From the IMG/VR virus record IMGVR_UViG_3300017788_000020, positions 1 to 64,000 of that record: a stretch of 64,000 nucleotides of DNA. The stretch is one strand, 5' to 3'. This document shows positions 1 to 59,459 of the stretch, one piece after another. This DNA is from a virus. Each line of letters begins with the position of its first letter. Position 1 is the stretch's first letter. The translations under genes were made by a program, and so were the position numbers. The notes below the pieces were generated by a model. That model was not told where the DNA came from. It worked only from the letters and a program-made list of their open reading frames with translations, and searched no databases.

Positions 1-14
1 ATTTGTAGTTGCAT
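1..14 (-). CDS. Start of a gene running off the window (partial)
   Basis: Read on the minus strand, a purine-rich stretch with GAGGAG is followed two bases later by an ATG at 14-12, and the frame (Met-Gln-Leu-Gln) stays open to the window edge. It would be the next gene of the minus operon 31-2639. Only four codons are visible, so nothing can be said about its product. The ribosome site lies unusually close to the ATG. Confidence 0.3.
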
Positions 15-30
15 GACTCCTCTTTTTTTT

Positions 31-180
31 TCAGCTGATCAGTTTGTAGTTATGGCTTTTCGCCATGCTACGCCATTCGCTGCGTTTGGTTGTGTACGTC
101 TTAGCAGCCCCTAGTTCAGAAATAGGCACGGCCAGGTACCGCTCCTGCCCGGCTGCGTAATTATAGTTCGTACTTGTCAT
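31..180 (-). CDS. Small hypothetical protein, 49 aa
   Basis: Not recognised. A longer reading from 258 is open, but the start at 180 is preferred because its ATG overlaps the stop of the AAA+ gene in an ATGA junction, the same arrangement used by the two genes upstream in this operon. The product is polar (MTSTNYNYAAGQERY...), with no membrane segment and no Cys pair. It is probably translationally coupled to the ATPase gene. Confidence 0.5.
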   Translation of the reverse strand: MTSTNYNYAAGQERYLAVPISELGAAKTYTTKRSEWRSMAKSHNYKLIS

Positions 181-1256
181 CTTATTGAAATAGACGCTTT
201 GGACGCACGTGTCGGGTCGTAGCGGCGTTTTCGTCGCGAAACGGTGCGTCTCGCACAACTTACAATATCCGCAGGCGACAGTTGCTTATAATCCGCAAAA
301 AAATGCTCGAAATCCTCTTCGTTTCGTTGGTAATCAGTCAGCCAGAGCTGTTTAGCCACATCACGCGCTAAGGGTTCGAGTTCGATAACATCAAAACAAC
401 GCTGCGACCGGACTAGTGCGTTATCCAACCTAAGCGCCGGTTGGTTAGAGGTGAGAATGATTCGGCTGTTCGGCGGGATAAGACCGTTAGCCGCGACCAG
501 GAGATTGCGAACGAAGACATTGCCCTGCCGCGTACTAAGATCGTCGTCTACATCGTCGAAAATGATGAACGGATAGTCGCCACTCCTGACTCTGTCCCAG
601 AACTCTGGCAGATGCAAGCACGCAGTATCACACGTTGTCAACACGGGGCAACGACGAAGCATCGCAATATGACGAGCCAAATGTGTTTTACCTGTTCCAG
701 CCGGTCCAACCAAGAACAGGAGAGCTTCTTCGATGTCATCTCCTTGTACATAGTCGTCGATCCAAGACAGATCCATCAAGCTGCCGTCTTTTTCACGGAA
801 GAAATTTGGGTTGAACGTAGTGAAATCATCCTCGGTGAGCGTCACTCTGCTCGTTTGCAGACCGGTACGCCCCACGGAAGCTATGGTTAGCTCTGTGTGC
901 GGATTTTGGTCGTCGACAGGCAGCCTCAGCGCCGTATCCAGTTCGGTACGCACTTTCTGAAAGAAGTACGGATCTTCTCTCCCGTGAAATACGGATACCC
1001 GGTTCACAATCAGACACACCGCTATCAAGCGGTTACTTGCGGCGTGGTGCCATATTTTTGTTACAGGCGAATGCTCTGCCTGCCAGTCAGCGCAAAAGCT
1101 TTCGAGTGTGTTTACGATAGCTTCTTCGGTTTTCTCGATGTAATCCCATGCCGTAAAGTACGGGTAGCGCTCAGGATCGATTATGCCTACAATAAGGCTA
1201 TCGCCTTGGTCTCTGTCTAACGCGCTAATAACGTATTTTGTCTGTCGTTCGCTCAT
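177..1256 (-). CDS. AAA+ ATPase
   Basis: A 359-residue P-loop NTPase of the AAA+ class. Walker A is GPAGTGKT (about residues 184-191), Walker B is FIIFDDVDD (about 229-237), a sensor-1-like strand is IILTSNQ (about 263-269), and a possible arginine finger lies in LVRSQRCF (about 277). The N-terminal ~170 residues match no family I can name. Single-domain phage AAA+ proteins of this size include replicative helicase loaders and DnaA/DnaC-like proteins, but no replication gene lies next to it here, so the role is open. It starts in an ATGA overlap with the upstream gene and ends in an ATGA overlap with the 49-aa gene, so it belongs to the minus operon driven from about 2650. Confidence 0.8.
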   Translation of the reverse strand: MSERQTKYVISALDRDQGDSLIVGIIDPERYPYFTAWDYIEKTEEAIVNTLESFCADWQAEHSPVTKIWHHAASNRLIAVCLIVNRVSVFHGREDPYFFQKVRTELDTALRLPVDDQNPHTELTIASVGRTGLQTSRVTLTEDDFTTFNPNFFREKDGSLMDLSWIDDYVQGDDIEEALLFLVGPAGTGKTHLARHIAMLRRCPVLTTCDTACLHLPEFWDRVRSGDYPFIIFDDVDDDLSTRQGNVFVRNLLVAANGLIPPNSRIILTSNQPALRLDNALVRSQRCFDVIELEPLARDVAKQLWLTDYQRNEEDFEHFFADYKQLSPADIVSCARRTVSRRKRRYDPTRASKASISIR

Positions 1257-1681
1257 ACGTAGTTGTCGATTGCGTCCGTGTGACGAATATTGTTAGAGTA
1301 AGTCTGTTCTGCGGCCGCTGCCACATATTTCGCCAGAGAGGCTCCCGTGCGCAGAACCCTGCTTCGCAGTAGAGGGCGCTTCCGCCCAAGTAACGGAGCA
1401 TGTCGTTGTGATATACCAAATGCGACAGCTTCTTCAGAAGCTAGACCGGGCCGTACACGCGTCTTGGTCGATCTGATAGAACTTTTTCGGTAAAGCCCGG
1501 CTTGGCGATGAGTTAACGGCGGAAAGACGCCGAGAAGGTACGATCGCGTTGTGGTGCAGGCTCCTCTTTCTACAACAACGTCGCGATAAGAGTTACCTAT
1601 CTTATTACTTCCCGGAGACTGCGAGCTAGCCCGCCTCGTTACAGGGTCTGCGTAGCGAAAGAATAGATCGGGCATTGTCAT
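1253..1681 (-). CDS. Hypothetical protein, 142 aa
   Basis: Not recognised. It is a basic, Arg-rich protein (N-terminus MTMPDLFFRYADPVTRR) ending in AIDNYV. Both ends are shared with neighbours through ATGA overlaps, which is the main support that it is translated. The last codons plus the next start read AACTACGTATGA, the same string found at the end of the gene upstream (1678-2130). No transmembrane segment and no metal-binding motif are seen. No long competing frame exists on the other strand. Confidence 0.55.
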   Translation of the reverse strand: MTMPDLFFRYADPVTRRASSQSPGSNKIGNSYRDVVVERGACTTTRSYLLGVFPPLTHRQAGLYRKSSIRSTKTRVRPGLASEEAVAFGISQRHAPLLGRKRPLLRSRVLRTGASLAKYVAAAAEQTYSNNIRHTDAIDNYV

Positions 1682-2130
1682 ACGTAGTTATCTAGCGCAT
1701 TTGTATGAAAAGAAATAAACGACTGCTGATCGCTTGGCGTGGGTACGTTCAACCGACATGCGCTACGCGTACACCGCAGTGCCGGACGTAACCGCGTCCT
1801 AATCGCATCGGCGCCTTCTACGCCATAGACGTCGGGATCATGCCCAAAATTGGCTAGCCAGCTGCTGTACAGGATCCTAATTCGCGGAGCGTGGTAACGA
1901 CACCGGGGTACAACGTATGCGTCGGCGACAGTGGTTTTGGCTGAGATCAAGGGTCCTGCGTCAACTAGTATAGGGACTGCGTCATGCTCTGCGTCGACCC
2001 CGCGCGCTCCCATATACCTAATCCTACCTTGTATAGTGCCGCCGTTTGCTCTGTTGCAGCCACGTATTCCAGCAGGTGTGCGCCGCCGGTCCGTGTGATA
2101 ATACATATTGTGGAAGCGCTTGTCTACCAT
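1678..2130 (-). CDS. Hypothetical protein, 150 aa
   Basis: Not recognised. The protein is rich in Arg, His and Tyr near the N-terminus (MVDKRFHNMYYHTDRRR) and ends in ALDNYV, nearly the same tail as its downstream neighbour. The ATG at 2130 follows an AGG-type ribosome site and lies nine bases after the stop of the HAD gene. The stop overlaps the next ATG (ATGA). It lies in the same operon as the HAD protein and the AAA+ ATPase. No domain can be assigned. Confidence 0.5.
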   Translation of the reverse strand: MVDKRFHNMYYHTDRRRTPAGIRGCNRANGGTIQGRIRYMGARGVDAEHDAVPILVDAGPLISAKTTVADAYVVPRCRYHAPRIRILYSSWLANFGHDPDVYGVEGADAIRTRLRPALRCTRSACRLNVPTPSDQQSFISFHTNALDNYV

Positions 2131-2138
2131 AGTGCTAC

Positions 2139-2639
2139 CTAACTGACTCTAGAAAAGTTTCTGCTTCTTAACATATCTATCGCTCGTTCAGCCGTACTGG
2201 CCGTCAACCCATCCCGGAGGGTTGTTCGAACGTGAAACTCTGCGAGACTACCGAATTCGCTTGGCGGCAGGTCATCTAGAATACATATCGAATCGATTAT
2301 ATCGGATTGCTCCTTTAACCACTTATCGATAGCATCGCCTCGCGTAGCACGCTTAGTCGAGTGCGCCGCCTCGTCTAAAAGCGAGGTGCTGCTGTGCATT
2401 GACAAGTCCCACATACTGAGGGCTACCAACAGCAAGTGTCCGTGCGTACCGGGTTTCCAGCCGTTGACACGCCACGTAGAGCTGACAACAATTCGCGCAC
2501 CAGTCGCGTGCACGATATCTTTAAGTAGCCCTAGACAATGTCTGTCTAGAGCAAACGTCGGAAGGTTGTGTCGAGCGGCCCGACCCAGTGCCCGGTCGTT
2601 GTTCAAGACACCATCAACGTCTAAGAACAAAATCTTCAT
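2139..2639 (-). CDS. HAD-like phosphatase (RNA-repair type HAD domain)
   Basis: A compact 166-residue HAD-fold protein. Motif I is FLDVDGVLN (residues 5-13, nucleophile Asp7 and acid Asp9). Motif II is VSSTWR (about 52-57), and an acidic motif, ILDDLP, lies near residue 122. The DVDGVLN plus SSTWR combination is typical of the small HAD family linked to 'Swiss army knife' RNA repair proteins and found in many phages, so a nucleotide or RNA-end phosphatase is likely, though the substrate is not shown. It is the first gene of the minus operon. The ATG lies only a few bases past the candidate promoter at 2642-2653, so the mRNA may be leaderless or nearly so. Confidence 0.75.
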   Translation of the reverse strand: MKILFLDVDGVLNNDRALGRAARHNLPTFALDRHCLGLLKDIVHATGARIVVSSTWRVNGWKPGTHGHLLLVALSMWDLSMHSSTSLLDEAAHSTKRATRGDAIDKWLKEQSDIIDSICILDDLPPSEFGSLAEFHVRTTLRDGLTASTAERAIDMLRSRNFSRVS

Positions 2640-2641
2640 AC

Positions 2642-2653
2642 ATATCTTATGAC
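2642..2653 (-). promoter_or_regulatory. Candidate promoter for the minus operon 2639-31
   Basis: On the minus strand the site reads GTCATAAGATAT, ending three bases before the HAD start codon. It matches the GTCATAAGTATT element seen upstream of the minus genes at 12939 and 40257 and in the 7480 and 62156 leaders. Inferred from recurrence and position only. Confidence 0.45.
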
Positions 2654-2696
2654 ATATAAAGATACGAATTTGGCGTAAAGGGTATCAAGTTATACT

Positions 2697-2707
2697 TCTA
2701 TATGAGG
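2697..2707 (+). promoter_or_regulatory. Candidate promoter for fibre module I
   Basis: TCTATATGAGG lies just before the first plus-strand structural gene, back to back with the minus element at 2642-2653. It resembles CTATAAGTAG (7611), CTATATGTAGG (12999) and ATATAAGTAG (15606). The GAGG at its end may also serve as the ribosome site of the ATG at 2717. Confidence 0.4.
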
Positions 2708-2716
2708 CCTTATACA

Positions 2717-3259
2717 ATGACCGAACTTCGTGCACTAGTCAGCATAGACGGGTACACACGTCTAGCAGAGCTGAAAGACGACGATACGCTCGCCCGCGTC
2801 GTCAACCACGCGGATTTTACTGCAAACAACACCGTTGTGGTTAAAAACAACGCAGGCGCCATAACGGCTGTATCGTTGGCGAGTACCACCGTCTTAGCTA
2901 ATATAGGCGCCGGACTGGCGGCTGTACCGCTAGCGGACCTTAAGACGGCTTTACAAGTACCTGCGCGGACTGTCGACGCAGTGAGAACCGGTGCGGTAAC
3001 CGCGGCACCTAATACGATACATCCAATAGATGTGCGAGCGGTAGCCGCCACTATAAATCCGCCAGAGGTCCCGACGGCCGATATGTGGTTCACAGTCGTC
3101 GATGCGTACGCTTCCGCCGCGCTGCATAACATAACAATCGCCTTTGATGACGCAAACCAGCTGTACTACGGTGCCGCAGGTAACGCGGTGATTACCTCAA
3201 ATGGCTCGGTTAAAACATTCACCTATATAAACGGGACTATTGGTTGGGTAGTTCAGTGA
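2717..3259 (+). CDS. Fibre-associated structural protein
   Basis: A 180-residue protein. The ATG at 2717 is chosen over 2702 because GAGG sits nine bases upstream. Residues about 25-75 (NHADFTANNTVVVKNNAGA, then LANIGAGLAAVPLADLKTAL) are closely paralleled at the N-terminus of the fibre protein at 13916 (NHSDFTSNSVMVKDNLGA, LLGNIGAGIASLSAADIRTLL), so the two are paralogous modules. The rest is Ala/Thr/Val-rich beta structure as expected of a virion appendage protein. It lies five bases upstream of the 1042-aa fibre gene and probably shares its mRNA. The exact role (fibre shaft, trimer or adaptor) is unknown. Confidence 0.65.
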   Translation: MTELRALVSIDGYTRLAELKDDDTLARVVNHADFTANNTVVVKNNAGAITAVSLASTTVLANIGAGLAAVPLADLKTALQVPARTVDAVRTGAVTAAPNTIHPIDVRAVAATINPPEVPTADMWFTVVDAYASAALHNITIAFDDANQLYYGAAGNAVITSNGSVKTFTYINGTIGWVVQ

Positions 3260-3263
3260 GTAA

Positions 3264-6200
3264 ATGACCAATTCTGAGCATCCTAGATATGCTGGCGACG
3301 TCATTTTTCTAAAAAATGGGGTCGCCATTATTGCTAATCAGGCGATCAATAGAGAGAAGATTGATCGTGCCAGCGTATTTTCAGCACTATTTACGCCGAA
3401 AGTTGTAACAAACGACCTGCTACAGGATGCATCGGTCGACAGTAGGGTAATAAAAGCCAATTCTGTGGCGTTCACGCGCCTCCAAACCGTTGCAGAAGGC
3501 ACTTTTTTAGGGAGATTACCCAGCACAGGTACCGGTGATCTGGTTCCGATACCTATTGAAGCCGTAAAAACATCACTAAATTACGTATCAAACCAGATAT
3601 TGTTCGATACGTCATCCGCAGACCTTGCAACAAACAGTATTTACGCAGTAATTTCCGCATTAGATGCGCGTATAGACGGTATCGAAGCGACGGGAATCGA
3701 CCTGACAGCCGATTATAATTGGACAGGTCTGCATACTTTTACAAAAAATGTGGCAATAAATGCCGCGTTGACTACGACAGGTACCGTAAATGGTCGAAAT
3801 TTGGCCACAGACGGAAGCAAATTGGACGGAATTGAGCCGAGCGCGACCGCGGACATGTCTGCGGCTGAGATTTTAGCGGCTTTATTGACTGTAGATGGCG
3901 TAACGAGCGGGTTAGACAGCCAGTACTTAGCAGGGCAAGCGGCGTCACACTACCTAGACTGGGCGAATACCACAAATAAGCCTGATTTATCAATCACTGT
4001 TAACTTAACAGGCGCTGTTTCAGGGTCTGGCTCGCACACTTTTACGGATTTGGCTGCCGGTTCGTTAGATATAGTAACAACACTCAACAACACCGGCGAA
4101 CTACTTGACCCGATAGTACTGGGCGCGTTACTAGTTCGCGCAGCGGCCACGCAAGACGGCGTACGCCTTCAAGGCCGCGCCGGCGGATCGAGTAGCTACA
4201 ACGTCACGTTGACGCCGACGACGTTGTCAGCTAGCCACACATTGACACTGCCGAACCAGTCAGGCACAGTTGCTGTACTCACAGATATTCCAACGCAGAC
4301 TCGTCTACGAGGCACTACAGGCGGTACGTATACTGGCGGGGATCTGACACTGTTAGCCGGTACTGGAATATCTGTATCACAGAGCACGACGGATTACACC
4401 ATCGGTAACACCGGGGTGACTCAACTTACCGGTACAACGAACCGCATAACAGTATCAGCAAGTACTGGCTCAATAACGCTAAACACGCCGCAAGATATGC
4501 ATACCGGCGCGTCGCCGACATTTGCTGGTGCAACATTCAGCGGTGACGTAGCGTTGGGTGGTAACAAGATCACAGGTCTAGGTACGCCCACAGCAAGTAC
4601 AGATGCCGCAACCAAAGGTTATGTGGACGCGGCGGTATCGGGCCTCGAGCCACACCCCGCATGCGCCGCAGCTACAACAGGGACCTTAGCCAGTATAACA
4701 GGCGGCTCTGTAACATATGACAACGGGGCTTCTGGCGTAGGCGCTACCCTCACGTTAGGCGTTGCTTTGACTACCCTCGACGGGTTCGCGTTAACAAACG
4801 GCGACCGTATTCTCGTCAAAAACGAAGCCACCGCAGCAAACAACGGTATCTATGTTAGGACAAGTAGCACAGTCCTTACACGCGCAACAGACTTTGACGC
4901 ACCGTCCGAAATCGTTGGTGGCGACTACACGTTCGTCACAAACGGTACGCTCTACAACAGCACCGGTTGGGTAAACACAGACAACGTTGTCACAGTCGGC
5001 ACAACAGCTGTGACCTGGGTACAGTTCTCAGGCGCTGGTACATATACCGCAGGCGCAGGCCTAACGCTGACGGGCTCCCAGTTTGCGCACGCAGACACAT
5101 CAAGCGTCAGTAACGTCAATAGTGATAACAGCGGTAACACAGTTATTCAAGATATTGCGCTCACTTTCGACACATATGGACACGTAACGGCAGCGACAGT
5201 GGCGACCGCGACTATTGTTGTCAACAACGGCATACTGTCGGCGTCGGCAGGTACAGCGGGCGCGACAAACACCACAGTTGCTTTAAACTTTAGCGGCGCA
5301 TATAGTGCCAACGAATCAGCAGACCGCACAATCAACCCGGTTGTGGGACCAGCTTTAACAGCTCTGGCGTCCACAATGACTGGCGCAGGTACAGGCTTCT
5401 TGCGCAAAAACGGCGCGGATACTTACTCGTTAGATACAAACACGTACTTAACAAGCGCTGGCGCGGTCACATCATTCAGCGCAGGTACAACAGGCCTTAC
5501 TCCGTCTACAGGTACGGTAGGCGCAATCACGTTAGCGGGTACTTTGAACATCGCTAACGGTGGTACAGGTGCAACAACTGCAAGCGCTGCGCGGACAGCG
5601 TTGGGCGCAACGACGGTTGGCGCTAATATATTTACGCTGACTAACCCGAGCGCTATTACGTTTTTACGTATAAACGCAGACAACTCGGTGACGGCGCGTG
5701 CGGCGGCAGATTTCCGCGGTGATATAGGCGCTGGTACTGTCACATCTGTAGCCTCAGGTACAGGCTTAACCGGCGGTCCTATAACAAGTACAGGGACATT
5801 AGCGCTTACAGGCCAAGCGCTTGCTCTGCATAACTTAGCCTCGAACGGCCTCATCGTACGGACAGGCTCGGATACGGTTGCTGCGCGTACGTTGACCGCC
5901 GGTACAGCCATCTCTATCACAAACGGCGATGGTGTGGCAGGTAACCCGACGATCGACTGCACATTCACAGAAACGGATACGCTGGCGGCCGTAACAGGTC
6001 GCGGCGCGAACACGACAACAACTATAGGTCTTCACAACGGAGCAGGCCTCGCACTTGCGGCGGACACATCAACTGATACTCTGACAAACGCAATAGCGGC
6101 CAGTTTGTCGACTATATCGCTCACGTCAGTTGACACATGGGCTATAGCAACATATCGGGCATGTAAGTATCTTGTACAAATAACGCAGTCGACAAACTAC

Positions 6201-6392
6201 CAAGTGTCGGAAATACTCGTTATACACAACGGTACCACTACAACGATGACCGAGTACGCTGTATTAGAGACTAACGGTCCGTTGTGTACTTTCACATCTG
6301 ATATCAACGGCGGTAACGTTCGCCTTTTAGCTACTATGGGTTCAGCGTCTGCGGCTACAATAAGAATACACAAGACCGTTATCGCGGTCTGA
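3264..6392 (+). CDS. Large tail fibre protein
   Basis: A 1042-residue, Gly/Thr/Ser/Ala-rich fibre. Recognisable phage-fibre modules include 'GIEPSATADMSAAEI', 'LDSQYLAGQAASHYLDWAN', 'NKITGLGTPTASTDAATKG' and 'LTFDTYGHVTAATVA', with several repeats of a TGTL/TAGTG beta-strand pattern in the last 500 residues. These blocks are common in trimeric fibres of marine and freshwater phages. It has no catalytic motif and no chaperone-like C-terminal domain. It lies between two smaller fibre proteins in one plus-strand unit. The DNA is internally repetitive, as expected for such a protein, so assembly or recombination variation is possible. Confidence 0.85.
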   Translation: MTNSEHPRYAGDVIFLKNGVAIIANQAINREKIDRASVFSALFTPKVVTNDLLQDASVDSRVIKANSVAFTRLQTVAEGTFLGRLPSTGTGDLVPIPIEAVKTSLNYVSNQILFDTSSADLATNSIYAVISALDARIDGIEATGIDLTADYNWTGLHTFTKNVAINAALTTTGTVNGRNLATDGSKLDGIEPSATADMSAAEILAALLTVDGVTSGLDSQYLAGQAASHYLDWANTTNKPDLSITVNLTGAVSGSGSHTFTDLAAGSLDIVTTLNNTGELLDPIVLGALLVRAAATQDGVRLQGRAGGSSSYNVTLTPTTLSASHTLTLPNQSGTVAVLTDIPTQTRLRGTTGGTYTGGDLTLLAGTGISVSQSTTDYTIGNTGVTQLTGTTNRITVSASTGSITLNTPQDMHTGASPTFAGATFSGDVALGGNKITGLGTPTASTDAATKGYVDAAVSGLEPHPACAAATTGTLASITGGSVTYDNGASGVGATLTLGVALTTLDGFALTNGDRILVKNEATAANNGIYVRTSSTVLTRATDFDAPSEIVGGDYTFVTNGTLYNSTGWVNTDNVVTVGTTAVTWVQFSGAGTYTAGAGLTLTGSQFAHADTSSVSNVNSDNSGNTVIQDIALTFDTYGHVTAATVATATIVVNNGILSASAGTAGATNTTVALNFSGAYSANESADRTINPVVGPALTALASTMTGAGTGFLRKNGADTYSLDTNTYLTSAGAVTSFSAGTTGLTPSTGTVGAITLAGTLNIANGGTGATTASAARTALGATTVGANIFTLTNPSAITFLRINADNSVTARAAADFRGDIGAGTVTSVASGTGLTGGPITSTGTLALTGQALALHNLASNGLIVRTGSDTVAARTLTAGTAISITNGDGVAGNPTIDCTFTETDTLAAVTGRGANTTTTIGLHNGAGLALAADTSTDTLTNAIAASLSTISLTSVDTWAIATYRACKYLVQITQSTNYQVSEILVIHNGTTTTMTEYAVLETNGPLCTFTSDINGGNVRLLATMGSASAATIRIHKTVIAV

Positions 6393-6420
6393 TAGCAGGT
6401 TTCGTGGATAGGGAAGCGAA

Positions 6421-6996
6421 ATGGTAAATGAGTTTAAAGCCAAAAATGGCTTAATCACGCCTGTTGTACAAGCTACCGTCACAACAGGTACATCACCCCT
6501 CGTTGTCGCATCGACAACTGTGGTTTCTAATCTAAACTCCGATCTCTTGGACGGTTACCAAGGATCGGATTTTCCGCGCAAGGCTGAAAATGCTACTGTG
6601 TCTGGTGCGTGGACTATCAACAACGACTTAGATATCAACGGCACACTGAAGGCCACAGCAAAGTCGTTCGTTATACAACATCCAACAAAAAAGAATAAAC
6701 GCTTACAGCACGGAAGCTTGGAAGGACCGGAGCACGCAGTCTATGTACGCGGTCGCGGAGAGACGGCCATCATCAAATTTCCCGCATATTGGAAAACGCT
6801 AGTCGATCCTGATACAATCACGGTACAGGTAACCCCGATAGGTATCGCCGACGACAACACGATTGCGGTGCATAGAATAAACAAAACAAGCGTGGTTCTG
6901 TCTTTTAGAATCACTCCGCGGCCTTATTTCTATTTCATCACCGCAGAACGTAGAGACATACCTCCGCTCGTTACGGAAATCCCCGCTAAAAAATAA
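6421..6996 (+). CDS. Short tail fibre or appendage protein
   Basis: A 191-residue protein. The N-terminal half has a fibre-type repeat (PLVVASTTVVSNLNSDLLDG, then SDFP), and the C-terminal domain begins KSFVIQHPTKKNKRLQHG and continues SLEGPEHAVYVRGRG. That C-terminal signature, with FPAYWKTLVDPDTITVQVTP, is shared by many cyanophage- and T4-type small fibre or structural proteins. The domain is thought to be structural, and no enzymatic role is implied. It is last in its unit: the stop codon lies inside the terminator hairpin at 6991-7020. Confidence 0.75.
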   Translation: MVNEFKAKNGLITPVVQATVTTGTSPLVVASTTVVSNLNSDLLDGYQGSDFPRKAENATVSGAWTINNDLDINGTLKATAKSFVIQHPTKKNKRLQHGSLEGPEHAVYVRGRGETAIIKFPAYWKTLVDPDTITVQVTPIGIADDNTIAVHRINKTSVVLSFRITPRPYFYFITAERRDIPPLVTEIPAKK

Positions 6997-7020
6997 GGCC
7001 GCAGTGCTGCGGCCTTATTT
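6991..7020. terminator. Bidirectional terminator between converging genes
   Basis: Perfect 14-base arms AAATAAGGCCGCAG and CTGCGGCCTTATTT with an A tract on one side and a T tract on the other. It separates the plus gene ending at 6996 from the minus gene ending at 7022 and can serve both. Confidence 0.85.
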
Positions 7021-7021
7021 C

Positions 7022-7480
7022 TCAGGAACAGTTGACACCCACTAGTACATAATGTGGGTTCACGGGATGCTCCTCAGTCACAAAAGACCTGTTGAATCCG
7101 AGGAGACTACCTAACGTCATTTCGTCCGCAGAACCTCCCGGAATCTCCGCAATCAAAGACACCTCACGGTCAGCGAACAGTGTCCTAAATGCGACAGGAG
7201 CATCCGCTGTCTCCCAAACGACGCACGCGTGTCGTTTATGCACAAGACTAGGCGCGTTATGCATGATACTTTCTTCTGTGTCCGCAAGCCGCTGCTCCAA
7301 CTCGCGAATTTTTCCGCGCTGTCTATCATGGACCGTAGCGCCGTGCTTCACAGATAGGCGCAACACGGCCACTTCTTCACACGCATCGGAACAAAACCTC
7401 AATGGTACAGTGCTGCTGCGAATGGGTATGCCGCATGTATAGCAGCAGGTATTTCGCAAATGTTCTTTTTTTGTCATCAT
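7022..7480 (-). CDS. Zinc-motif hypothetical protein, 152 aa
   Basis: The N-terminus has a probable zinc site, CCYTCGIPI (about residues 12-20) then RFCSDAC (about 28-34), resembling a short treble-clef or MYM/FCS-type finger. A charged helix follows (about 50-70, coiled-coil-like RGKIRELEQRLADTEES), then a ~70-residue unassigned domain. It is a lone minus gene inside the fibre module. A ribosome site GAGGT precedes the ATG pair MM, and the candidate promoter at 7568-7579 lies about 90 bases upstream. Function unknown; nucleic-acid binding is only a guess from the finger. Confidence 0.6.
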   Translation of the reverse strand: MMTKKEHLRNTCCYTCGIPIRSSTVPLRFCSDACEEVAVLRLSVKHGATVHDRQRGKIRELEQRLADTEESIMHNAPSLVHKRHACVVWETADAPVAFRTLFADREVSLIAEIPGGSADEMTLGSLLGFNRSFVTEEHPVNPHYVLVGVNCS

Positions 7481-7567
7481 ACTACCTCATATGTCACTTG
7501 TTACTCGCCCATCGCCTAAAAAGTTACGCGGTATTTCGCTAGTCCATACACAATAAAAAAGCTCCAC

Positions 7568-7579
7568 AATACTTATGAC
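7568..7579 (-). promoter_or_regulatory. Candidate promoter for the 7480 minus gene
   Basis: Minus-strand GTCATAAGTATT, identical to the elements at 12958-12969 and 40275-40286. It sits about 90 bases upstream of the ATG, in the divergent region 7481-7623. Confidence 0.5.
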
Positions 7580-7609
7580 ACAAATATCGTAAGTTAGGCG
7601 TATAGGTAC

Positions 7610-7621
7610 ACTATAAGTAGA
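7610..7621 (+). promoter_or_regulatory. Candidate promoter for the 7624 fibre gene
   Basis: ACTATAAGTAGA ends two bases before the ATG at 7624. It shares the ATAAGTA core with the minus elements and resembles 12997-13009 and 15600-15615. If it is a -10 element, the transcript would have almost no leader. Confidence 0.45.
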
Positions 7622-7623
7622 TT

Positions 7624-9453
7624 ATGGCTTTCGCGGATAAAAATATACTAATCACGCCAAATCGCGGCTCGACTACCGAGGTCCCGACAGTTGCGTTTGT
7701 CGGTGCCGACGTCTCAACAAACGTGACGATAGACGCGAAGATGTACCACACGAACATCCTCGAGTTTAGCGGATCGCCTGGCGTTTTGTTTAGTATATCA
7801 GCCGCCTCTAGCGGAACAATTACGCACCATGTAGCCGCCGTATTTAACAACACAATAACGAGCTCGTCAACAGTTCAAGGTACGCAATTCATATCGACTA
7901 TCGCTACCGGCACCGCGCCACTCACAGTCTCGTCGACAACGGCTGTGACTAATTTAAACGCAGATTTACTTGACGGACAGCATGGGACACATTACCTAGC
8001 TTTCGCCAACTTCACCGGATCCGCTTCAACGGCCCAGATCACCGACAACGCGGTGGACAACACAAAACTTCGCGATTCTGCGGCATTATCCGTCATCGGT
8101 CGCTCAGCCAACTCGTCAGGAGACCCCGCGGATATCGCAGCAGCCTCGGACGGGCACGTACTGCGGAGATCCGGCACCACACTTGGTTTTGGGCAAGTAG
8201 TTACGGCCGGTATTGCAGACCTTGCCGTAACACGTGCAAAGATTGAGGATGAGGCCGTAGGTACGGATCAGATCGAGAATGAGGCCGTTACTACGGACAA
8301 GATCGCCGATAACGCGGTCACAGGAGCTAAGTTTGCCAATTACTCCATCACATCGAATAAATTATCAGACGCCGCTGTAAATTCGGATAAAGTCGATCTA
8401 TCTGACACATACACCTGGAGCGGTCCGCACACTTACTTTAGCTCTGTAAAGTTCAACAACACCGTCGATATTTCAGGCGTGACTACGTTTAATAACGCCA
8501 GCGTGAAGCTCGGTGCTGCGGTGACGGTTACGACAGACAACGGTAGCGGGTGGTGGTTCAACCTCTATTCAGGTATTAAGTTTACTGGATTATTGCTGTT
8601 CCCTGCCGTACCGAGCGTCACAATAACAGCTAACGATGGAGCAGGTAACGTATCGACGCTGGCGCTTTCCGCCGCCGGAATGAATATGACGTTCAGCGGA
8701 ACCGCGGATTGGGCACTCAACAGCGTAGTAGGTAAGCTTAACGAAGTACTTGTTGCCCAAGGCAACGACACGCCGCCTAAATTTGTACATTTGTGCCCGC
8801 CAATACGATATGCATGGACGGACTTCTATTCGCCCAACGCCTCACAGACGCAGGACCCATACTTCGGCACAGCACTAGTCAGCGGCACGCAATCCGCGTC
8901 GCCCGGCGCAACCTTCTTGATCGCAGGCGTTGCCGGTCTGAGCCTTTTACGTAGCTCAACGAACGCAAACTCCGGTTTCCGTTGGATCACGGAGAACATC
9001 GACCGCATAGCCGGCCAGGCCGATCTCTATTTCCGTGCTATTTTAGCCATCTCGGATGATATGACAGCCAAAACCGTACGATTCGGTTTTGGTGATATGG
9101 TCAACCAGAACGACGCGGTAGACGGTACGTACTTTGAGCTAGTGGCCGGCTCGCTCGTGTGCACACCGAAAACAGCCAGCAACTCGGCACGTTCAAGTGG
9201 GTCGACATTCACGCTAACAGTAAATACCTTTTATGTTTTCGAGGTATATTGGACATCAACGAGCAGCATCAACTTCACGATAAAATCGCTTGACGAGGCC
9301 ACGGTACATCTCGACACTAATATTACGACAAACATTCCAACAGGTACTGCGCGCGTTTTCGGTGCAGGCCTTGTCGCAACGTCGTCGGATACGGCTGCCG
9401 ATGATTTGCTAGTCGTGGATTATATGGGACACGGCTTCAGGAACAGACGATAA
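7624..9453 (+). CDS. Tail fibre with C-terminal lectin-like domain
   Basis: A 609-residue protein. The N-terminal third has fibre modules (GTAPLTVSSTTAVTNLNADL then LDGQHGTHYLAFANFTG; GRSANSSGDPADIAAASDG). The middle has repeats of the form DEAVGTDQIENEAVTTDKI. The last ~200 residues, starting near FYSPNASQTQDPYFG, contain alternating strands such as FRAILAISDDMTAKTVRFG and FYVFEVYWTSTSSINFTIKS, which look like a concanavalin/LamG-type jelly roll. A receptor-binding role is likely but inferred. The stop overlaps the next start (TAATG), coupling it to the SGNH-like protein. Confidence 0.75.
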   Translation: MAFADKNILITPNRGSTTEVPTVAFVGADVSTNVTIDAKMYHTNILEFSGSPGVLFSISAASSGTITHHVAAVFNNTITSSSTVQGTQFISTIATGTAPLTVSSTTAVTNLNADLLDGQHGTHYLAFANFTGSASTAQITDNAVDNTKLRDSAALSVIGRSANSSGDPADIAAASDGHVLRRSGTTLGFGQVVTAGIADLAVTRAKIEDEAVGTDQIENEAVTTDKIADNAVTGAKFANYSITSNKLSDAAVNSDKVDLSDTYTWSGPHTYFSSVKFNNTVDISGVTTFNNASVKLGAAVTVTTDNGSGWWFNLYSGIKFTGLLLFPAVPSVTITANDGAGNVSTLALSAAGMNMTFSGTADWALNSVVGKLNEVLVAQGNDTPPKFVHLCPPIRYAWTDFYSPNASQTQDPYFGTALVSGTQSASPGATFLIAGVAGLSLLRSSTNANSGFRWITENIDRIAGQADLYFRAILAISDDMTAKTVRFGFGDMVNQNDAVDGTYFELVAGSLVCTPKTASNSARSSGSTFTLTVNTFYVFEVYWTSTSSINFTIKSLDEATVHLDTNITTNIPTGTARVFGAGLVATSSDTAADDLLVVDYMGHGFRNRR

Positions 9454-10403
9454 TGGCTAACACAATTTTTAAAGACCTGACGACTAAAGCAGCACAACTT
9501 GTGTCAACGGACAGAGTCGTATCTATATGGTTAGGCGATTCAATTATCGCAGGGACTTCGATGGCGCCGACATCGACGATCATTGATCCAGGAAGTATAT
9601 ATCCTGCGACACTGACGCGCGGGCAGTTTTGGGATAAATGGGTACACGCTGATAGGCTTGTTTTATCCGACGGTTCGTTTAGCTGGGATGACGTGACGAC
9701 CACAAGCGGCGGTATCACAAGCGGTGTCGGCTATACGCCACCATTCTATGGACACTCGCTATATCTCGGAGGCTCCGGTACCGCAGACTTTACCGCCAAC
9801 ATCAACCACGTAAACGCGGTAAAACACTACACAGTAGTGCTTGGTATAAGCGCGTCCAGCATTAACGACGATTTGTCGGTTGTCACAAACCCATTGGCGC
9901 ACTGGGAACCTTCTGTAGATAACGGAGCTTTTGAGCTACTTACCGAAAATTACATACAACCCGCACTATCAAACCTACGTGCTGGTGGGACTAATACGCT
10001 GTATCTAGAAGGAATCTATTTACACATAGGTAATGATGCGTACAACGGCGCAACATACTTCCCGATCGAGATAGCGCAAAAATACGATATCTATTTACGT
10101 AGACTAATATTCGCGCTAGAGCAGTTCCTCGAATTCTCCGGTATTCCTGTTTGTATATTACAGACGCCGCAGCTACCTTCCGATTATGCGCATGCAGGCA
10201 CTATTCGTGCCGCCCAAGCGCGCGTAGCGGCTGCACGGCCTAGAACAATCCTGGTCAACCCAAACCAGTTTCCACAAGGCACGGACCACGTACACTTTAA
10301 CGCCATGGGTAACATAAAGTACGGTTACGAGGCGGCACAGGCAGTACGCGCAGCGTTCCCAAACCAGTTCGCACAACTAGCTGCGAAAGCCGATCACTGG
10401 TAA
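9453..10403 (+). CDS. SGNH-hydrolase-like fibre-associated protein
   Basis: A 316-residue protein with the landmarks of the SGNH esterase fold: block I LGDSIIAG (about residues 28-35, Ser nucleophile in GDS) and a C-terminal block V-like DHVHFNAMG (Asp-x-x-His, about 278-286). An intermediate LHIGNDAYNG may supply the Gly/Asn oxyanion block. The family includes carbohydrate O-acetyl esterases, and in phages these are tailspike-type enzymes that deacetylate host surface sugars; here that is inference. The paralogue at 13025 keeps the same blocks. Translationally coupled to the upstream fibre (TAATG). Confidence 0.65.
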   Translation: MANTIFKDLTTKAAQLVSTDRVVSIWLGDSIIAGTSMAPTSTIIDPGSIYPATLTRGQFWDKWVHADRLVLSDGSFSWDDVTTTSGGITSGVGYTPPFYGHSLYLGGSGTADFTANINHVNAVKHYTVVLGISASSINDDLSVVTNPLAHWEPSVDNGAFELLTENYIQPALSNLRAGGTNTLYLEGIYLHIGNDAYNGATYFPIEIAQKYDIYLRRLIFALEQFLEFSGIPVCILQTPQLPSDYAHAGTIRAAQARVAAARPRTILVNPNQFPQGTDHVHFNAMGNIKYGYEAAQAVRAAFPNQFAQLAAKADHW

Positions 10404-10419
10404 TATTTAACTAAAAGAG

Positions 10420-10441
10420 AAGCAGGCGCAGGCGCCTGCTT
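10420..10441. terminator. Terminator hairpin after the 9453-10403 gene
   Basis: Perfect arms AAGCAGGCG and CGCCTGCTT with a CAGG loop, 16 bases after the stop codon. A short U-poor tail follows, so efficiency is uncertain. Confidence 0.6.
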
Positions 10442-10460
10442 ATAGCTACATCTTTATGTT

Positions 10461-10495
10461 ATGAACCTCTTCCGCATCATTGGAAAGAGGTTCAT
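10461..10495. terminator. Second hairpin in the convergent region
   Basis: Arms ATGAACCTCTT and AAGAGGTTCAT, extendable by three pairs across a one-base bulge. No T tract follows on either side, so it may be a processing or backup terminator rather than an intrinsic one. Confidence 0.4.
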
Positions 10496-10502
10496 ACGTT
10501 TC

Positions 10503-10638
10503 GAAGACTTATAATGTGTGATACGCCCGTCAATACCCAGACTCTTAGCTAACAGCAGTACTTCATGAGCTAACATGAAGTACTGCTGTTAGCTAAGAGT
10601 CTGGGTATTGACGGGCGTATCACACATTATAAGTCTTC
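10503..10638. repeat. 65-bp perfect inverted repeat copied from RNA polymerase intein 1
   Basis: Two 65-bp arms (10503-10567 and 10574-10638) are exact reverse complements around a 6-nt spacer. Both are copies of intein-1 coding DNA. The right copy, 10574-10644, matches 55743-55813 at 70 of 71 bases. The left copy, 10503-10573 read in reverse complement, matches 55737-55807, again with a single mismatch. Both differ from the intein at the same base (T at 55784, G here), a synonymous Gly codon change. The copied region encodes LLAKSLGIDGRITHYKSS of the homing-endonuclease part. It lies at the convergence of the plus fibre unit and the minus operon 12939-10627. Confidence 0.95.
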
Positions 10639-10833
10639 TATGAATGTGATGTGTGCGCCCTCTTCGTTTGCCCACGCCTCTGCGGCACTTCTGACGTAGT
10701 ACAAGCTGAGTAACAATAGTGCGTATAGACACAGACCACTACAAATCAGTTGTATCGCGGTCGGTTGGCGCGACACCTTTCGCCGCGTAAATGGCGCAGC
10801 CGATATCGAAAACTTATTTTTTCTTGTAAACAT
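10627..10833 (-). CDS. Small membrane protein, 68 aa
   Basis: The N-terminus is basic (MFTRKNKFSIS...RRKVSRQ), followed by one hydrophobic segment (about residues 28-46, ICSGLCLYALLLLSLYYV) and a short acidic tail ending ITFIEDL. The final EDL and stop codon are supplied by the right arm of the intein-derived inverted repeat, so that event may have replaced the original 3' end. It is last gene of the minus operon 12939-10627 and overlaps its upstream neighbour by 20 bases. Function unknown; a lysis or membrane role would be a guess from size and topology. Confidence 0.5.
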   Translation of the reverse strand: MFTRKNKFSISAAPFTRRKVSRQPTAIQLICSGLCLYALLLLSLYYVRSAAEAWANEEGAHITFIEDL

Positions 10834-11116
10834 GCAACTCGACGTAGAGTTTTTCTAGCGCAAATCCTTGCTCTACATTTAACTTCACAAGCTCGTTCTG
10901 CACTACTCTGTGCAGGTCTTGGTATGTCATACCAGAGTCGATCTCGATGCGAACGACCGGTGCTGGCGGCGCACAGACTTTGGTCGGTACTGTTTGTTCT
11001 ATGTTGGACAAGGCTTTCTTGAGTACTTTATGATTACTCGATCCTTTGGTGCTCGTCGCCTTGATGACTAGTAGCACAAGCGCTGCCGCATATGCGAAGA
11101 AGATTAAGCTAAGCAT
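10814..11116 (-). CDS. Membrane-anchored small protein, 100 aa
   Basis: Start taken at 11116 (MLSLIFFAYAAALVLLVIKA) rather than 11143, because this gives an N-terminal membrane anchor directly and an 8-base overlap with the preceding gene. After the anchor come a linker and a domain beginning near VVRIEIDSGMTYQDLHRVVQ. The layout (one N-terminal anchor plus a soluble domain of ~70 residues) is compatible with an inner-membrane spanin or another periplasmic protein, but no family is recognised. Confidence 0.5.
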   Translation of the reverse strand: MLSLIFFAYAAALVLLVIKATSTKGSSNHKVLKKALSNIEQTVPTKVCAPPAPVVRIEIDSGMTYQDLHRVVQNELVKLNVEQGFALEKLYVELHVYKKK

Positions 11117-11312
11117 TTCTGTCTTTTCTGTACAGGAGCACACCTAGACCTACACTTGCGATTGTGCAGGATAGGGCTACCCAAAACACAGGGCTCGGGA
11201 CCGCGGTAAAGGTTTCGGTAACAACATAGATACCTGCGGGTACCACAAGACCTAAGACAATACCGTGCAGCATTGCTGTTGCAATGGCTGCCGCTAGCGA
11301 ATATGTTTTCAT
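11109..11312 (-). CDS. Two-TM small membrane protein (holin-like size)
   Basis: 67 residues with two hydrophobic stretches (about residues 6-30, AAAIATAMLHGIVLGLVVPA, and 42-60, FWVALSCTIASVGLGVLL) and a charged C-terminus, YRKDRNA. This size and topology match class II holins, but many unrelated phage membrane peptides look the same and no endolysin is in the window. Its start overlaps the upstream stop (ATGA). Confidence 0.5.
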   Translation of the reverse strand: MKTYSLAAAIATAMLHGIVLGLVVPAGIYVVTETFTAVPSPVFWVALSCTIASVGLGVLLYRKDRNA

Positions 11313-11533
11313 GAGTATTCGTTGTATGATTTTTCACACAGCACATCGACCGTGATTGTCATCAACACGGCCAGCAGTGCCATAATGTAGAGGTATAACC
11401 CAAACGCTGTTTGCGTATAGAGCACGTGACCTATCAGGCATACTGAAGTCCATACTACGAACGACAGCGTGAAGACCAGTACTAGCATACTCGCTCGCAT
11501 GCCGTACACGGGTATGTATGTAAGCCAGGTCAT
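11309..11533 (-). CDS. Two-TM small membrane protein, 74 aa
   Basis: Two hydrophobic segments (about residues 14-37, MLVLVFTLSFVVWTSVCLIG, and 43-62, AFGLYLYIMALLAVLMTITV) and a polar tail, CEKSYNEYS. ATGA overlaps join it to both neighbours. Not assigned to a family. With 11109-11312 it forms a membrane-protein pair in the middle of the operon. Confidence 0.5.
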   Translation of the reverse strand: MTWLTYIPVYGMRASMLVLVFTLSFVVWTSVCLIGHVLYTQTAFGLYLYIMALLAVLMTITVDVLCEKSYNEYS

Positions 11534-11859
11534 TTTTGTTGTTTTTTAAGTAAATTACCGGTCGTAGTTAAGCTACCACAAATCAGGGCGAGCTCTTCAA
11601 GACGGCGGTTAGAGGCGATGATCTGTAGTCTTGTCGTCTCTACCTCGTTTTCGGCTAACCTGCAGGCCTCGGCAGCCCGGCGATATACCGCCGAATCCAA
11701 ATCAAATGCTTGCCGTAAGCAGTTGTTTGATGCTGATGCGAGTTTGCGGCGCTCTGTGTCAAATCGTGCCGCTAGCTCTTTGTGGGCTACATCTGCGTCA
11801 CTACACAGAGTAGTTACTTCTTGTAGGATATCGGCCACGCGATCAGCTAGTTTTTTCAC
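11530..11859 (-). CDS. Coiled-coil protein, 109 aa
   Basis: A GTG start at 11859 is chosen because GAGGAG lies seven bases upstream; the open frame also extends to a TTG at 11874. The product is largely helical with heptad-like spacing (ADRVADILQEVTTL; KELAARFDTERRKLASASNN; AENEVETTRLQIIASNRRLE), so a coiled coil is likely. No membrane segment. It overlaps the next gene (ATGA) and the preceding one by 17 bases. Confidence 0.5.
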   Translation of the reverse strand: MKKLADRVADILQEVTTLCSDADVAHKELAARFDTERRKLASASNNCLRQAFDLDSAVYRRAAEACRLAENEVETTRLQIIASNRRLEELALICGSLTTTGNLLKKQQK

Positions 11860-12232
11860 GGGGCGCCTCCTCAAACACTAGCTGGAAATCCGACCAGAGA
11901 CTCTGCTGCACTTCAGCCAAACATACGCCAAAATTCAGACGAGCCAACTGGGCCGAAATGTGTTGTCTTAGCGGATTTGCGTATTTTTCCCAGTTTTCAC
12001 GGGTTTCGATCACCTCGTCACCGTTTTTACCGACGTAGAGCCGCGCAACGCACCATACAGGTTGACCTAGCTGATGCACTGAGATCGCAGTGTCTAATTC
12101 CGCTGTGTGTTCGGCCAAACCGGCCGCCGCGGCAGCTTCGTTTACAATCCGTAGTAGTTCTCTAGTGAGCGAGAACAACATCACGTTAAAAGCCCTACGA
12201 TTGTCTCTTAGTTCCTGGGTTAAGGTAGTCAT
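11843..12232 (-). CDS. Hypothetical protein, 129 aa
   Basis: Not recognised. Mostly soluble, with an N-terminal helical part (MTTLTQELRDNRRAFNVMLF) and a central stretch WCVARLYVGKNGDEVIETRE that looks like a beta hairpin. It starts one base after the stop of the upstream gene. It fits the tightly packed minus operon 12939-10627, and no motif suggests a function. Confidence 0.5.
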   Translation of the reverse strand: MTTLTQELRDNRRAFNVMLFSLTRELLRIVNEAAAAAGLAEHTAELDTAISVHQLGQPVWCVARLYVGKNGDEVIETRENWEKYANPLRQHISAQLARLNFGVCLAEVQQSLWSDFQLVFEEAPREKTS

Positions 12233-12233
12233 T

Positions 12234-12596
12234 TTAGATGTACTGTTCTATGTAGAACACGCCGCTAGGTAGCGGCTGTGTGAGCAAGACTGTTTTACCT
12301 GCGTTACCGTTGATGAGTAGCGCTTGGCGCGATGGTGCATGTACGTCAAACGGCGAAACTACTGTTATCAGCACCGGTTGATCTGGCGTGTGGTACACAA
12401 GGCGCTCATAATCCGCCCTCGCAGGCATGGCCAGTACGAACGCTTCGTCATCAGCGACGCACCGTAATTCGAATAGCGCCAATAGTGCAGCATCCATGTG
12501 CACCGCTACCACGCCTGCTGGAAAATCGCGCCGCGAGCCTCCCACAGGGACAAAAACAAATTGGCGCAATACGTCAGTTAGCGGCGATTGACTCAT
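12234..12596 (-). CDS. Hypothetical protein, 120 aa
   Basis: Not recognised. The ATG at 12596 (MSQSPLTDVLRQFVFVPVGG) is preferred to an upstream TTG at 12614. It overlaps the end of the preceding gene by 23 bases. The composition suggests a compact alpha/beta protein with many Val/Leu strands (FPAGVVAVHMDAALLALFEL). No catalytic pattern is evident. Confidence 0.5.
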   Translation of the reverse strand: MSQSPLTDVLRQFVFVPVGGSRRDFPAGVVAVHMDAALLALFELRCVADDEAFVLAMPARADYERLVYHTPDQPVLITVVSPFDVHAPSRQALLINGNAGKTVLLTQPLPSGVFYIEQYI

Positions 12597-12939
12597 GGGT
12601 ATTACGTATCGCAAAAGTTAGGCCCGTTTTAAGCACCGTCTGTTCTATCGGCACATCCGCAGAGGTGCCCTCGGGGCGACAGCGGACAAGCTCCGCGTCC
12701 CATGTCACACGTAGCCCGCAACGTGCGCAGTGCGCCAACGCTTCGGTAAGGGACGGGCGTAATGTATATGGATCCGATATCAACGCGACTACAGCCAACA
12801 CGTCCGGACATATATCCCCCTGTTTGTATGTAATCGAATCTGGTACCAACGCGGTGTTTTTATTGGCCTTGTTGTTGTTCTGTACTATGGTAAGAAGTTT
12901 TCTGTAGAAGAACATTCCGGGGTGTTCAGCTGTTTGCAT
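12574..12939 (-). CDS. Hypothetical protein with CxxC, 121 aa
   Basis: First gene of the eight-gene minus operon. It contains CARCG (about residues 91-95) and two further Cys, so one zinc site is possible but not certain. The candidate promoter GTCATAAGTATT ends 19 bases upstream of the ATG, and a GCGAGG-like ribosome site lies between. No family recognised. Confidence 0.5.
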   Translation of the reverse strand: MQTAEHPGMFFYRKLLTIVQNNNKANKNTALVPDSITYKQGDICPDVLAVVALISDPYTLRPSLTEALAHCARCGLRVTWDAELVRCRPEGTSADVPIEQTVLKTGLTFAIRNTHESIAAN

Positions 12940-12957
12940 AGCTAAAAGATGCCTCGC

Positions 12958-12969
12958 AATACTTATGAC
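12958..12969 (-). promoter_or_regulatory. Candidate promoter of the 12939-10627 operon
   Basis: Minus-strand GTCATAAGTATT, followed by a G-containing spacer, a purine-rich ribosome site and the ATG at 12939. One of three identical 12-base copies in the window, all upstream of minus-strand units. Confidence 0.55.
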
Positions 12970-12996
12970 CTAAAACAGTCCGTATTTCTCAGTATA

Positions 12997-13009
12997 CTCT
13001 ATATGTAGG
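12997..13009 (+). promoter_or_regulatory. Candidate promoter of the 13025 gene
   Basis: CTCTATATGTAGG lies 16 bases before the ATG at 13025 and back to back with the minus element at 12958. It shares the CTATA(A/T)GTAG pattern with 7611 and 15606. Confidence 0.4.
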
Positions 13010-13024
13010 TACGTTACGTATTAT

Positions 13025-13870
13025 ATGGTAGGTCATCCTCGTCTCATTATAGCTTTTGGTGATTCGCGTATAGGCGGTTTCGGCGCTAGCCGAACCGGCG
13101 CACGCTTTGCTGACACAATAACAGGCCCTGCTCCCCTAACTAGCCTAGCAAAGCGCTGGACAGATCCTTCCACAAGGTTCGATATCGACGCGCAGTACAA
13201 TACCGAAGATCCTTGGACTATTCACACAGATACACAAAATCTCCAAGGAACCGGGACGGTAGCGAGTTACAGTATCGCCCGCACAGATGGGCGGATGAAA
13301 CCATCCGGACAAAGCCGTTACATAGTATTTTTCTCAGGAAGTGGTTCACAAACATCGAACCAGAACGTGATCAACCCGCTGGGCACATGGGACCCTCAAG
13401 TATCTAACGGCTTGTTTGATTTATTCACACAAGGTTATCTATTACCTGTACTCTCCCTGCTGCCGCGCCCCATAGAGCTCGGCGGCATTTATTTTACACT
13501 GGGTGGCGGAGATGGCAGAACAATAGAAGCCGCTAACGATTACACAGCCGCATTAACAAGAGTTCTTCTCGGCCTAGAAACTATATTAGGCGTGGCACAG
13601 TTACCATGTGTGGCAGACATAATGCCTACACCACTAGATACAACACTGTATCCCCATCAGAATATAGTCCGCGCACAACAACAGCATATTAATGCCAATG
13701 TAGTCACCGGGCCGCTCGCAAAAGTATATTTCGAGAACTCAGATCACCTACGCAGAATTGATTCTGTACACTGGACACACGACGGCGTACTTATAGCCGG
13801 CATAAACATGTGTAGACGCATGCTTACTGACACTAATCCGCCAGGTACCGAGCCGCTCATACTTCAATAA
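13025..13870 (+). CDS. SGNH-hydrolase-like protein, second copy
   Basis: A 281-residue protein with the same blocks as the 9453 protein: IIAFGDSRIGGFG near the N-terminus (Ser in GDS, about residues 11-13), GGIYFTLGGGDGR in the middle, and IDSVHWTHDG near residue 240 (Asp-x-x-His). Shared features such as NPLGTWDPQVSNGLFDL against NPLAHWEPSVDNGAFEL show clear paralogy. A surface-sugar esterase on the tail is the likely role by family. It has its own candidate promoter and is followed by a ~45-base gap before the next fibre. Confidence 0.65.
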   Translation: MVGHPRLIIAFGDSRIGGFGASRTGARFADTITGPAPLTSLAKRWTDPSTRFDIDAQYNTEDPWTIHTDTQNLQGTGTVASYSIARTDGRMKPSGQSRYIVFFSGSGSQTSNQNVINPLGTWDPQVSNGLFDLFTQGYLLPVLSLLPRPIELGGIYFTLGGGDGRTIEAANDYTAALTRVLLGLETILGVAQLPCVADIMPTPLDTTLYPHQNIVRAQQQHINANVVTGPLAKVYFENSDHLRRIDSVHWTHDGVLIAGINMCRRMLTDTNPPGTEPLILQ

Positions 13871-13915
13871 ACCGAGCATACGTACACATAGACACAATAC
13901 ATATACACATAGGTT

Positions 13916-15490
13916 ATGGCTAATAAAAAACCCGTTGTAGCTGTAGGAACTTCTCCTAACTTTACTGGTCTAGGAGAGCTGGCGGCGGCTGATAGACTAG
14001 ACGGAATAGTAAATCACTCAGATTTTACTAGTAATTCCGTAATGGTCAAGGATAATCTTGGCGCAGTTGTGCCCACTAATTTAGCAACAAACACTTTATT
14101 AGGTAATATTGGTGCAGGTATAGCCTCTTTGAGTGCCGCAGATATCCGAACACTACTCAAGAATATCTACAATTTAACAACGACAGGTCAAGTATTAGCC
14201 TATAACGATGCCACAGACACATTAGTATCAATCGCACCTGGTACAAATGGTCAAGCATTAGTATTTGACAACACTGTTACAGGTGGATTAAAAGCTGGTG
14301 ATGTAGCAAGTCAGCTGAACGGCTTAGCAGATGTTACATTGAACACACCTGTTGTCGGACAAACGCTAAGACATAACGGCACGTTATTTGTTAACGCTAA
14401 GCTGGCGCTGGCTGATCTCAGCAATGTCGATCTATCTGGTCTAGATGATGGCGATGTGCTGCAGTATGATCTCGGTGCAGACGAGTGGATTGCTGGACCT
14501 GTATCTGTATCTTCTGGTTTAGCATCAAACGGCGATCTCACAGCAGTTGAGATTGATATGTACGGTGGTAACAATACAGCCAAACCTATCATAGGACTGA
14601 GCCGCGTAGCTTTCCAAGCCAACATGGATATTCAATCCGGAACAGCTTGGCGAATACTACACTTCGGCACAGATCTAGTCGTGTCGAGGACACAAGCAGG
14701 AGCGGCTGGCGACCTTGTGACCACATTTAACCAAGATCGCACAGTACGCCTTCACGCATACGAGAACACTAGAGACGATAGCGCCACAACGCCTATCAAC
14801 TTCTTGTACACCAACGCGACTGGTGTTGTACTGAGCTCACCTATAACAGAACTCGCCATCCCCGCTGAGCTAGATGACCTGACAGATGTTGATCTTACTA
14901 CAACGCCGCCAGTCGATGGACAATTCCTTAAGTATGTGGTGGATAAGTGGGTAGCGGCAGCCGCCCCAACAGCTACCTGGATTGGTACAGCGACAAGTAC
15001 GCTGAACATGGCCAACAACGCCATAACGAACAATGCTTCGTTAGCGTTCCGCGACTACGGGTCAGGTGCGTGGAGTATTGTTGGTAACGGCGCCAACTCG
15101 TTGGTATTCTCTTTTGGCGCATCCGCACGTGTCAGTGTACTCAGCACAGGCGATATTGTTCTAGGCGCCTATGGTTCAGCAAGAGCGACGGACTCTGGTA
15201 CGTACCCTGTTACCAATTTCATGTACACGACAACGGCTGGGGGCTTTGCCAGAGCCGTTATCGAGACAATGCCGTATTTCCGCGATGCTGGGAATGCGAC
15301 AGAGCATATCGAAGATATATTCTTCATAAACGGTTCTGATGCGATGAAGCGTTTGGCGCTAGCCGATATCCCCGCATTTGACGATCAGACAGCGGCTACA
15401 GCTGGCGGCGCCACATCAGGTAGACTGTGGAAAGCCTCATCCGGTAACACAATGAGTGTTCCGCCAGGCACGCTAATCGTATCGCCATGA
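13916..15490 (+). CDS. Tail fibre protein, 524 aa
   Basis: The N-terminus (about residues 20-90) is a paralogue of the 2717 protein: RLDGIVNHSDFTSNSVMVKD, LATNTLLGNIGAGIASLS. A region follows with two copies of a LADVTLNTPVVGQTLRHNGT / LTDVDLTTTPPVDGQFLKYV repeat, typical of phage fibres, and a Thr/Gly/Ser-rich distal part. No enzyme motif. It ends about 80 bases before two hairpins. Likely part of the adsorption apparatus, exact position unknown. Confidence 0.75.
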   Translation: MANKKPVVAVGTSPNFTGLGELAAADRLDGIVNHSDFTSNSVMVKDNLGAVVPTNLATNTLLGNIGAGIASLSAADIRTLLKNIYNLTTTGQVLAYNDATDTLVSIAPGTNGQALVFDNTVTGGLKAGDVASQLNGLADVTLNTPVVGQTLRHNGTLFVNAKLALADLSNVDLSGLDDGDVLQYDLGADEWIAGPVSVSSGLASNGDLTAVEIDMYGGNNTAKPIIGLSRVAFQANMDIQSGTAWRILHFGTDLVVSRTQAGAAGDLVTTFNQDRTVRLHAYENTRDDSATTPINFLYTNATGVVLSSPITELAIPAELDDLTDVDLTTTPPVDGQFLKYVVDKWVAAAAPTATWIGTATSTLNMANNAITNNASLAFRDYGSGAWSIVGNGANSLVFSFGASARVSVLSTGDIVLGAYGSARATDSGTYPVTNFMYTTTAGGFARAVIETMPYFRDAGNATEHIEDIFFINGSDAMKRLALADIPAFDDQTAATAGGATSGRLWKASSGNTMSVPPGTLIVSP

Positions 15491-15572
15491 TGCCGATTTC
15501 CCGTTAAAACGCATTTCTATCGAGCGAAATGGCAAATAGCGCCATTTGATATCTAAAAAAGCCCAAACTACA

Positions 15573-59446: not shown

Positions 59447-59459
59447 TTTGTAATACGCA

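Follow-up and report, generated by a model that had tools for sequence, protein, structure and literature searches.

Template switching can make perfect hairpins in a single event (PMC8794818). In the template-switch mutations of Monttinen and Loytynoja (2022, PMC8794818), both strands are copied and a perfect stem arises at once; the known cases are local, and the largest pattern resembling such a mutation extends up to 59 bp. Fold-back inversions through hairpin priming are known in yeast and human (PMC7467729, PMC10622511); they leave head-to-head inverted copies around a short loop and duplicate a chromosome end by the fold. Inverted joins also form in the laboratory when 3' ends prime on other strands during multiple displacement amplification (MDA), and such chimeras usually have one junction and a neighbouring source (PMC1855051). 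Intrinsic bidirectional terminators place a hairpin between converging phage genes.

We describe here a phage locus that can be compared with all of these. Like a template-switch mutation, it could have acquired its perfect stem in one event by copying of both strands, but its source, still intact, is 45 kb distant and its stem reaches 65 bp. It has the head-to-head inverted copies and the short loop of a fold-back inversion, whereas the duplicated part is a short piece between unrelated flanks. MDA chimeras are alike in their inverted joins and differ from the three junctions, distant source and variant allele seen here. With bidirectional terminators the locus shares position and hairpin shape, but it has no U-tract, a 65-bp stem and sequence derived from an intein.

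The window analysed here (64,000 nucleotides) comprises bases 1-64000 of an IMG/VR uncultured virus contig of 64,564 bp. A fused beta-beta' RNA polymerase gene with two inteins lies at 50556-59417, beside a gene for a portal-like protein. Among named phages, Vibrio phage D69 and Salmonella phage Arash come closest, at approximately 30% protein identity, and the best relatives in IMG/VR have about 50% of polymerase residues in common with the window phage. Intein 1 interrupts the catalytic loop of the beta' part, where the relatives read NMDFDGD-TAGIHVP without interruption; its start is uncertain by one codon, as the Ala codon at 54711-54713 may be part of it. It carries motifs like those of LAGLIDADG endonucleases. 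The splice residues of this intein (54711-56300), which splits an NADFDGD-like loop, are unusual, the first residue being Ala/Val and not Cys/Ser, with Thr following the intein. An intein-like stretch 27% identical to intein 1 adjoins the polymerase gene in another surveyed stretch, L070. The features of the locus and of its source are as follows.

9453 to 10403, plus strand: ORF of 316 aa with a weak SASA/SGNH-esterase-like match, the last in the plus-strand operon that converges on the hairpin
10420 to 10441, no strand assigned: terminator-like hairpin (AAGCAGGCGCAGGCGCCTGCTT) just 3' of the plus-strand gene, T-rich solely on the minus-strand side
10460 to 10496, no strand assigned: ordinary hairpin with a 12-bp perfect core (TATGAACCTCTTCC...GGAAAGAGGTTCATA), 6 nt from the left edge of the insert, without a U-tract
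10503 to 10573, minus strand: left copy, the reverse complement of intein-1 DNA 55737-55807 (71 nt, one mismatch), forming the left arm and the loop
10568 to 10573, no strand assigned: hairpin loop AGCTAA, intein 55737-55742 in reverse complement
10574 to 10644, plus strand: right copy, intein-1 DNA 55743-55813 (71 nt, the identical single mismatch)
10627 to 10833, minus strand: ORF of 68 aa with a hydrophobic segment, whose final five residues, FIEDL, and stop are encoded by the insert
54714 to 56300, plus strand: intein 1, inserted in the loop NMDFNGD|TAGIHVP
55737 to 55813, plus strand: intein-1 stretch from which the copies derive, within the fused RNA polymerase gene (LAHEVLLLAKSLGIDGRITHYKSSMK), directly after the motif GLFAGLMDTDGS

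The original prediction described two 71-base copies of intein-1 DNA lying head to head in a perfect 65-bp hairpin, and sequence comparison confirmed it to the exact coordinates. Arms 10503-10567 and 10574-10638 are complementary at 65 of 65 pairs around a 6-nt loop. The source, about 45 kb from the copies, is intact within the open RNA polymerase/intein frame. The copies start and end at different intein positions yet share one synonymous difference, also as predicted: T55784 of the intein is G in both, a silent change in a GGT codon (Gly 1743 of the ORF). Six intein bases are private to each arm, 55737-55742 on the left (the loop) and 55808-55813 on the right. The copies, both 71 nt long, are shifted by 6 nt relative to each other at either end, although the equality of the offsets is suggestive only, since each copy edge is uncertain by about one base. 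A 71-nt match with one mismatch has a chance expectation of approximately 1e-31, and a chance match between hairpin and intein is excluded.

The position between converging transcripts holds as well, with the plus-strand ORF ending at 10403 and the minus-strand ORF at 10627-10833. That the insert supplies the last codons of a membrane-protein gene is correct as regards the codons; the "membrane protein" itself is an unconfirmed ORF for which no relative was found. Both flanks match the rest of the contig in tetranucleotide composition. Seven related contigs share with the window the structural genes between 15.6 kb and the polymerase gene but not the region 1-15.5 kb, so that synteny does not confirm that the flanks adjoin. 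No relatives of the genes left of the structural cassette (window 1-15500) are detectable in those seven contigs, a sign that this region changes rapidly.

Among 2.2 Mb from 82 related stretches, surveyed for perfect hairpins with a loop of up to 60, stems reach 18 bp with two exceptions, one of 36 bp in L086 and the one of 65 bp in the window. The hairpin of L086, a distant relative, lies at 2490-2575 and has a 14-nt loop; it was considered as a similar event and rejected, there being no source copy within its 44.8-kb contig. When repeats of at least 40 bp and at least 85% identity within the same stretch were compared, the intein-fragment repeat was the sole distant one and all others were no more than about 2 kb apart, many of the surveyed stretches being only about 20 kb long, so that very distant repeats are visible in the longer contigs only.

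A copying or repair accident, rather than a working regulatory element, is the most likely origin of this structure, a laboratory artefact being less likely. We favour, with a probability of about 0.62, a recent one-off ectopic insertion in which both strands of approximately 77 bp of intein DNA (55737-55813) came to lie head to head, leaving a neutral or mildly harmful scar. Such an insertion would probably have begun with a break or stalled fork beside the hairpin at 10460-10496, where a growing 3' end would have switched to intein DNA. One intein strand would have been copied to 55737, followed by a U-turn to the complementary strand at 55743, return copying to 55813 and resumption at the original locus. 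An equivalent route would be that a break captured an intein duplex closed at one end and bearing 6-nt 3' extensions. By either route, the U-turn of a switching polymerase or the uptake of a fragment capped by a hairpin, both strands of a single intein duplex would most likely have been captured.

Adjacent reverse-complement and forward copies in a near-perfect stem are what a U-turn insertion leaves, and here all 65 of 65 positions pair; an unaltered source can be identified elsewhere, at 55737-55813. The shared variant gives good support for the derivation of both copies from one intein piece. This part of the proposal that one fragment was duplicated by a fold-back event therefore stands; a simple fold-back fits poorly. 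In a plain snap-back the second arm should hold nothing that is absent from the first, and it is disfavoured because each arm has six intein bases that are missing from the other. If one arm had been copied from the other, one of the six-base intein matches would have to be due to chance (about 1 in 4096), and thus both strands of the duplex were most likely used. These private ends mean, whichever arm came first, that the intein itself was the template for the other arm, or else that the arms derive from opposite strands of a single duplex. Both the U-turn and the captured duplex predict head-to-head copies, and also the shared variant if the source duplex had G; the captured duplex fits, suggestively, the equal 71-nt lengths offset by 6 as well. 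The 65 undecayed perfect pairs indicate youth or homogenisation of the arms.

Two observations count against a recent ectopic insertion. Similarity at the outer edges, beyond the copy ends at 55807 and 55813, is not significant (P 0.19 and 0.40). The G variant is absent from the present intein; its presence in the copies requires that the intein had an earlier or a different allele, or that a mutation spread between the arms.

If real, the locus clearly preserves the trace of an event in a phage genome in which both strands of a distant sequence were copied, and it illustrates how the DNA of a selfish element can, in a single step, give rise to a long perfect hairpin and to the last codons of a reading frame. 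It reveals no new system. A regulatory role for structures of this kind should be proposed only after they have been checked against the reads.

It is possible, although unlikely, that chimeric molecules from amplification (MDA), library preparation or assembly were built into the contig. The record is that of an uncultured virus, 85% of 475 MDA chimeras were inverted joins (PMC1855051), and inverted repeats have been documented in library chimeras (PMC10908179). An independent copy of the hairpin site is also lacking in the collections searched. Searches with the whole RNA polymerase, the hairpin pattern, both flanks and the neighbouring proteins found no close relative there, nor a second copy of the phage or an insert-free site; the nearest RNA polymerases are about 50% identical, from sequences without the region. 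A 41-nt match across the left junction in Vibrio phage PhiImVa-1 (E 0.08) was treated as chance. However, an artefact would need three junctions and a variant absent from the intein in the majority of reads at the hairpin, and MDA inversions are mainly local (<10 kb), compared with 45 kb here. T in the intein and G in the hairpin were assembled as separate alleles, from which we reason that the G allele is truly in the reads. The like composition of the flanks and the contig also argues against an artefact.

A function for the hairpin is not supported, and a scar without function is the default. The element could have been recruited from the intein to end the converging transcripts, as a transcription stop, an RNase III site or a protector of RNA ends, and this we regard as improbable. 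It does lie exactly between the converging genes, at a junction from which a canonical terminator is absent, and its stability is extreme (-152.4 kcal/mol for the 231-nt region 10440-10670, z-score -20.8). However, an intrinsic terminator has its U-tract right after the stem, and a terminator role is not supported here because neither side of the 65-bp stem, on either strand, has one. Moreover, two smaller hairpins are already present at 10420-10441 and 10460-10496, and a perfect stem of 65 bp goes well beyond the needs of termination, the other terminators in the window having stems of 10-16 bp. The three other convergent gene pairs in the window have A-stem-T terminators (6991-7020, 38744-38775 and 59416-59447). 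A transcript of the hairpin would fold into a long double-stranded stem, potentially open to cleavage by RNase III. An Rfam search with the hairpin gave nothing above the gathering score; the sub-threshold hits were to microRNA-precursor models only, which reward any long hairpin.

Another question is whether the hairpin belongs to a wider pattern in this lineage. At 61201-63500 of the window, 31 perfect hairpins (arms of at least 8 bp, 8-16 bp being found; loop 3-20) are observed against 0.5 expected from dinucleotide shuffles. Fifteen of them lie within a minus-strand ORF of 296 aa at 61266-62156, where 0.3 are expected after codon shuffling; a faecal phage encodes a relative of the protein at 32% identity, and the gene for it is without such hairpins. 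A comparable region, with 36 hairpins observed against 1.1 expected, is found at 900-4300 of L090 (contig G003, IMGVR_UViG_3300045125_000140, approximately 40.9-44.3 kb), from a phage with about 44% RNA polymerase identity to the window phage. It comprises coding and non-coding DNA and has no significant sequence similarity to 61201-63500. The cluster at 61.2-63.5 kb is a stronger oddity than the intein-fragment hairpin. An active hairpin-writing process in the lineage, that is, frequent U-turn template switching, might have made both the cluster and the 65-bp hairpin, with the products kept for their effect on RNA or DNA structure; we regard this as improbable.

Two further proposals, both from the original prediction, are very improbable. 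As an antisense regulator of the RNA polymerase/intein mRNA, any transcript of the hairpin would have one arm complementary, not fully as had been stated but with one mismatch, to 71 nt of the intein mRNA; this role is unlikely because the arms would pair mutually at once, holding the complementary arm in a perfect intramolecular stem and away from the polymerase mRNA, and in addition the target is mid-gene, within the intein and distant from the translation start, and no promoter-like site faces the hairpin (sigma-70 promoters were sought there). A scar of aborted intein homing would suit a source with endonuclease-like motifs, but a homing product is an intein inserted at its recognition sequence, and here the copied piece is internal, with neither intein end nor extein flank nor homing site, and the hairpin flanks are unlike that site, NMDFNGD|TAGIHVP, all of which makes homing unlikely.

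Elsewhere in the window, the motif YAATACTTATGAC (CTATACTTATGAC at one site) occurs on the plus strand at 7567, 12957, 40274 and 62562. It precedes the first genes of plus-strand operons (7624, 13025, 40322) by 35-60 nt, and a weaker copy is present at 2641, before 2702. YAATACTTATGAC is a candidate for a phage-specific promoter.
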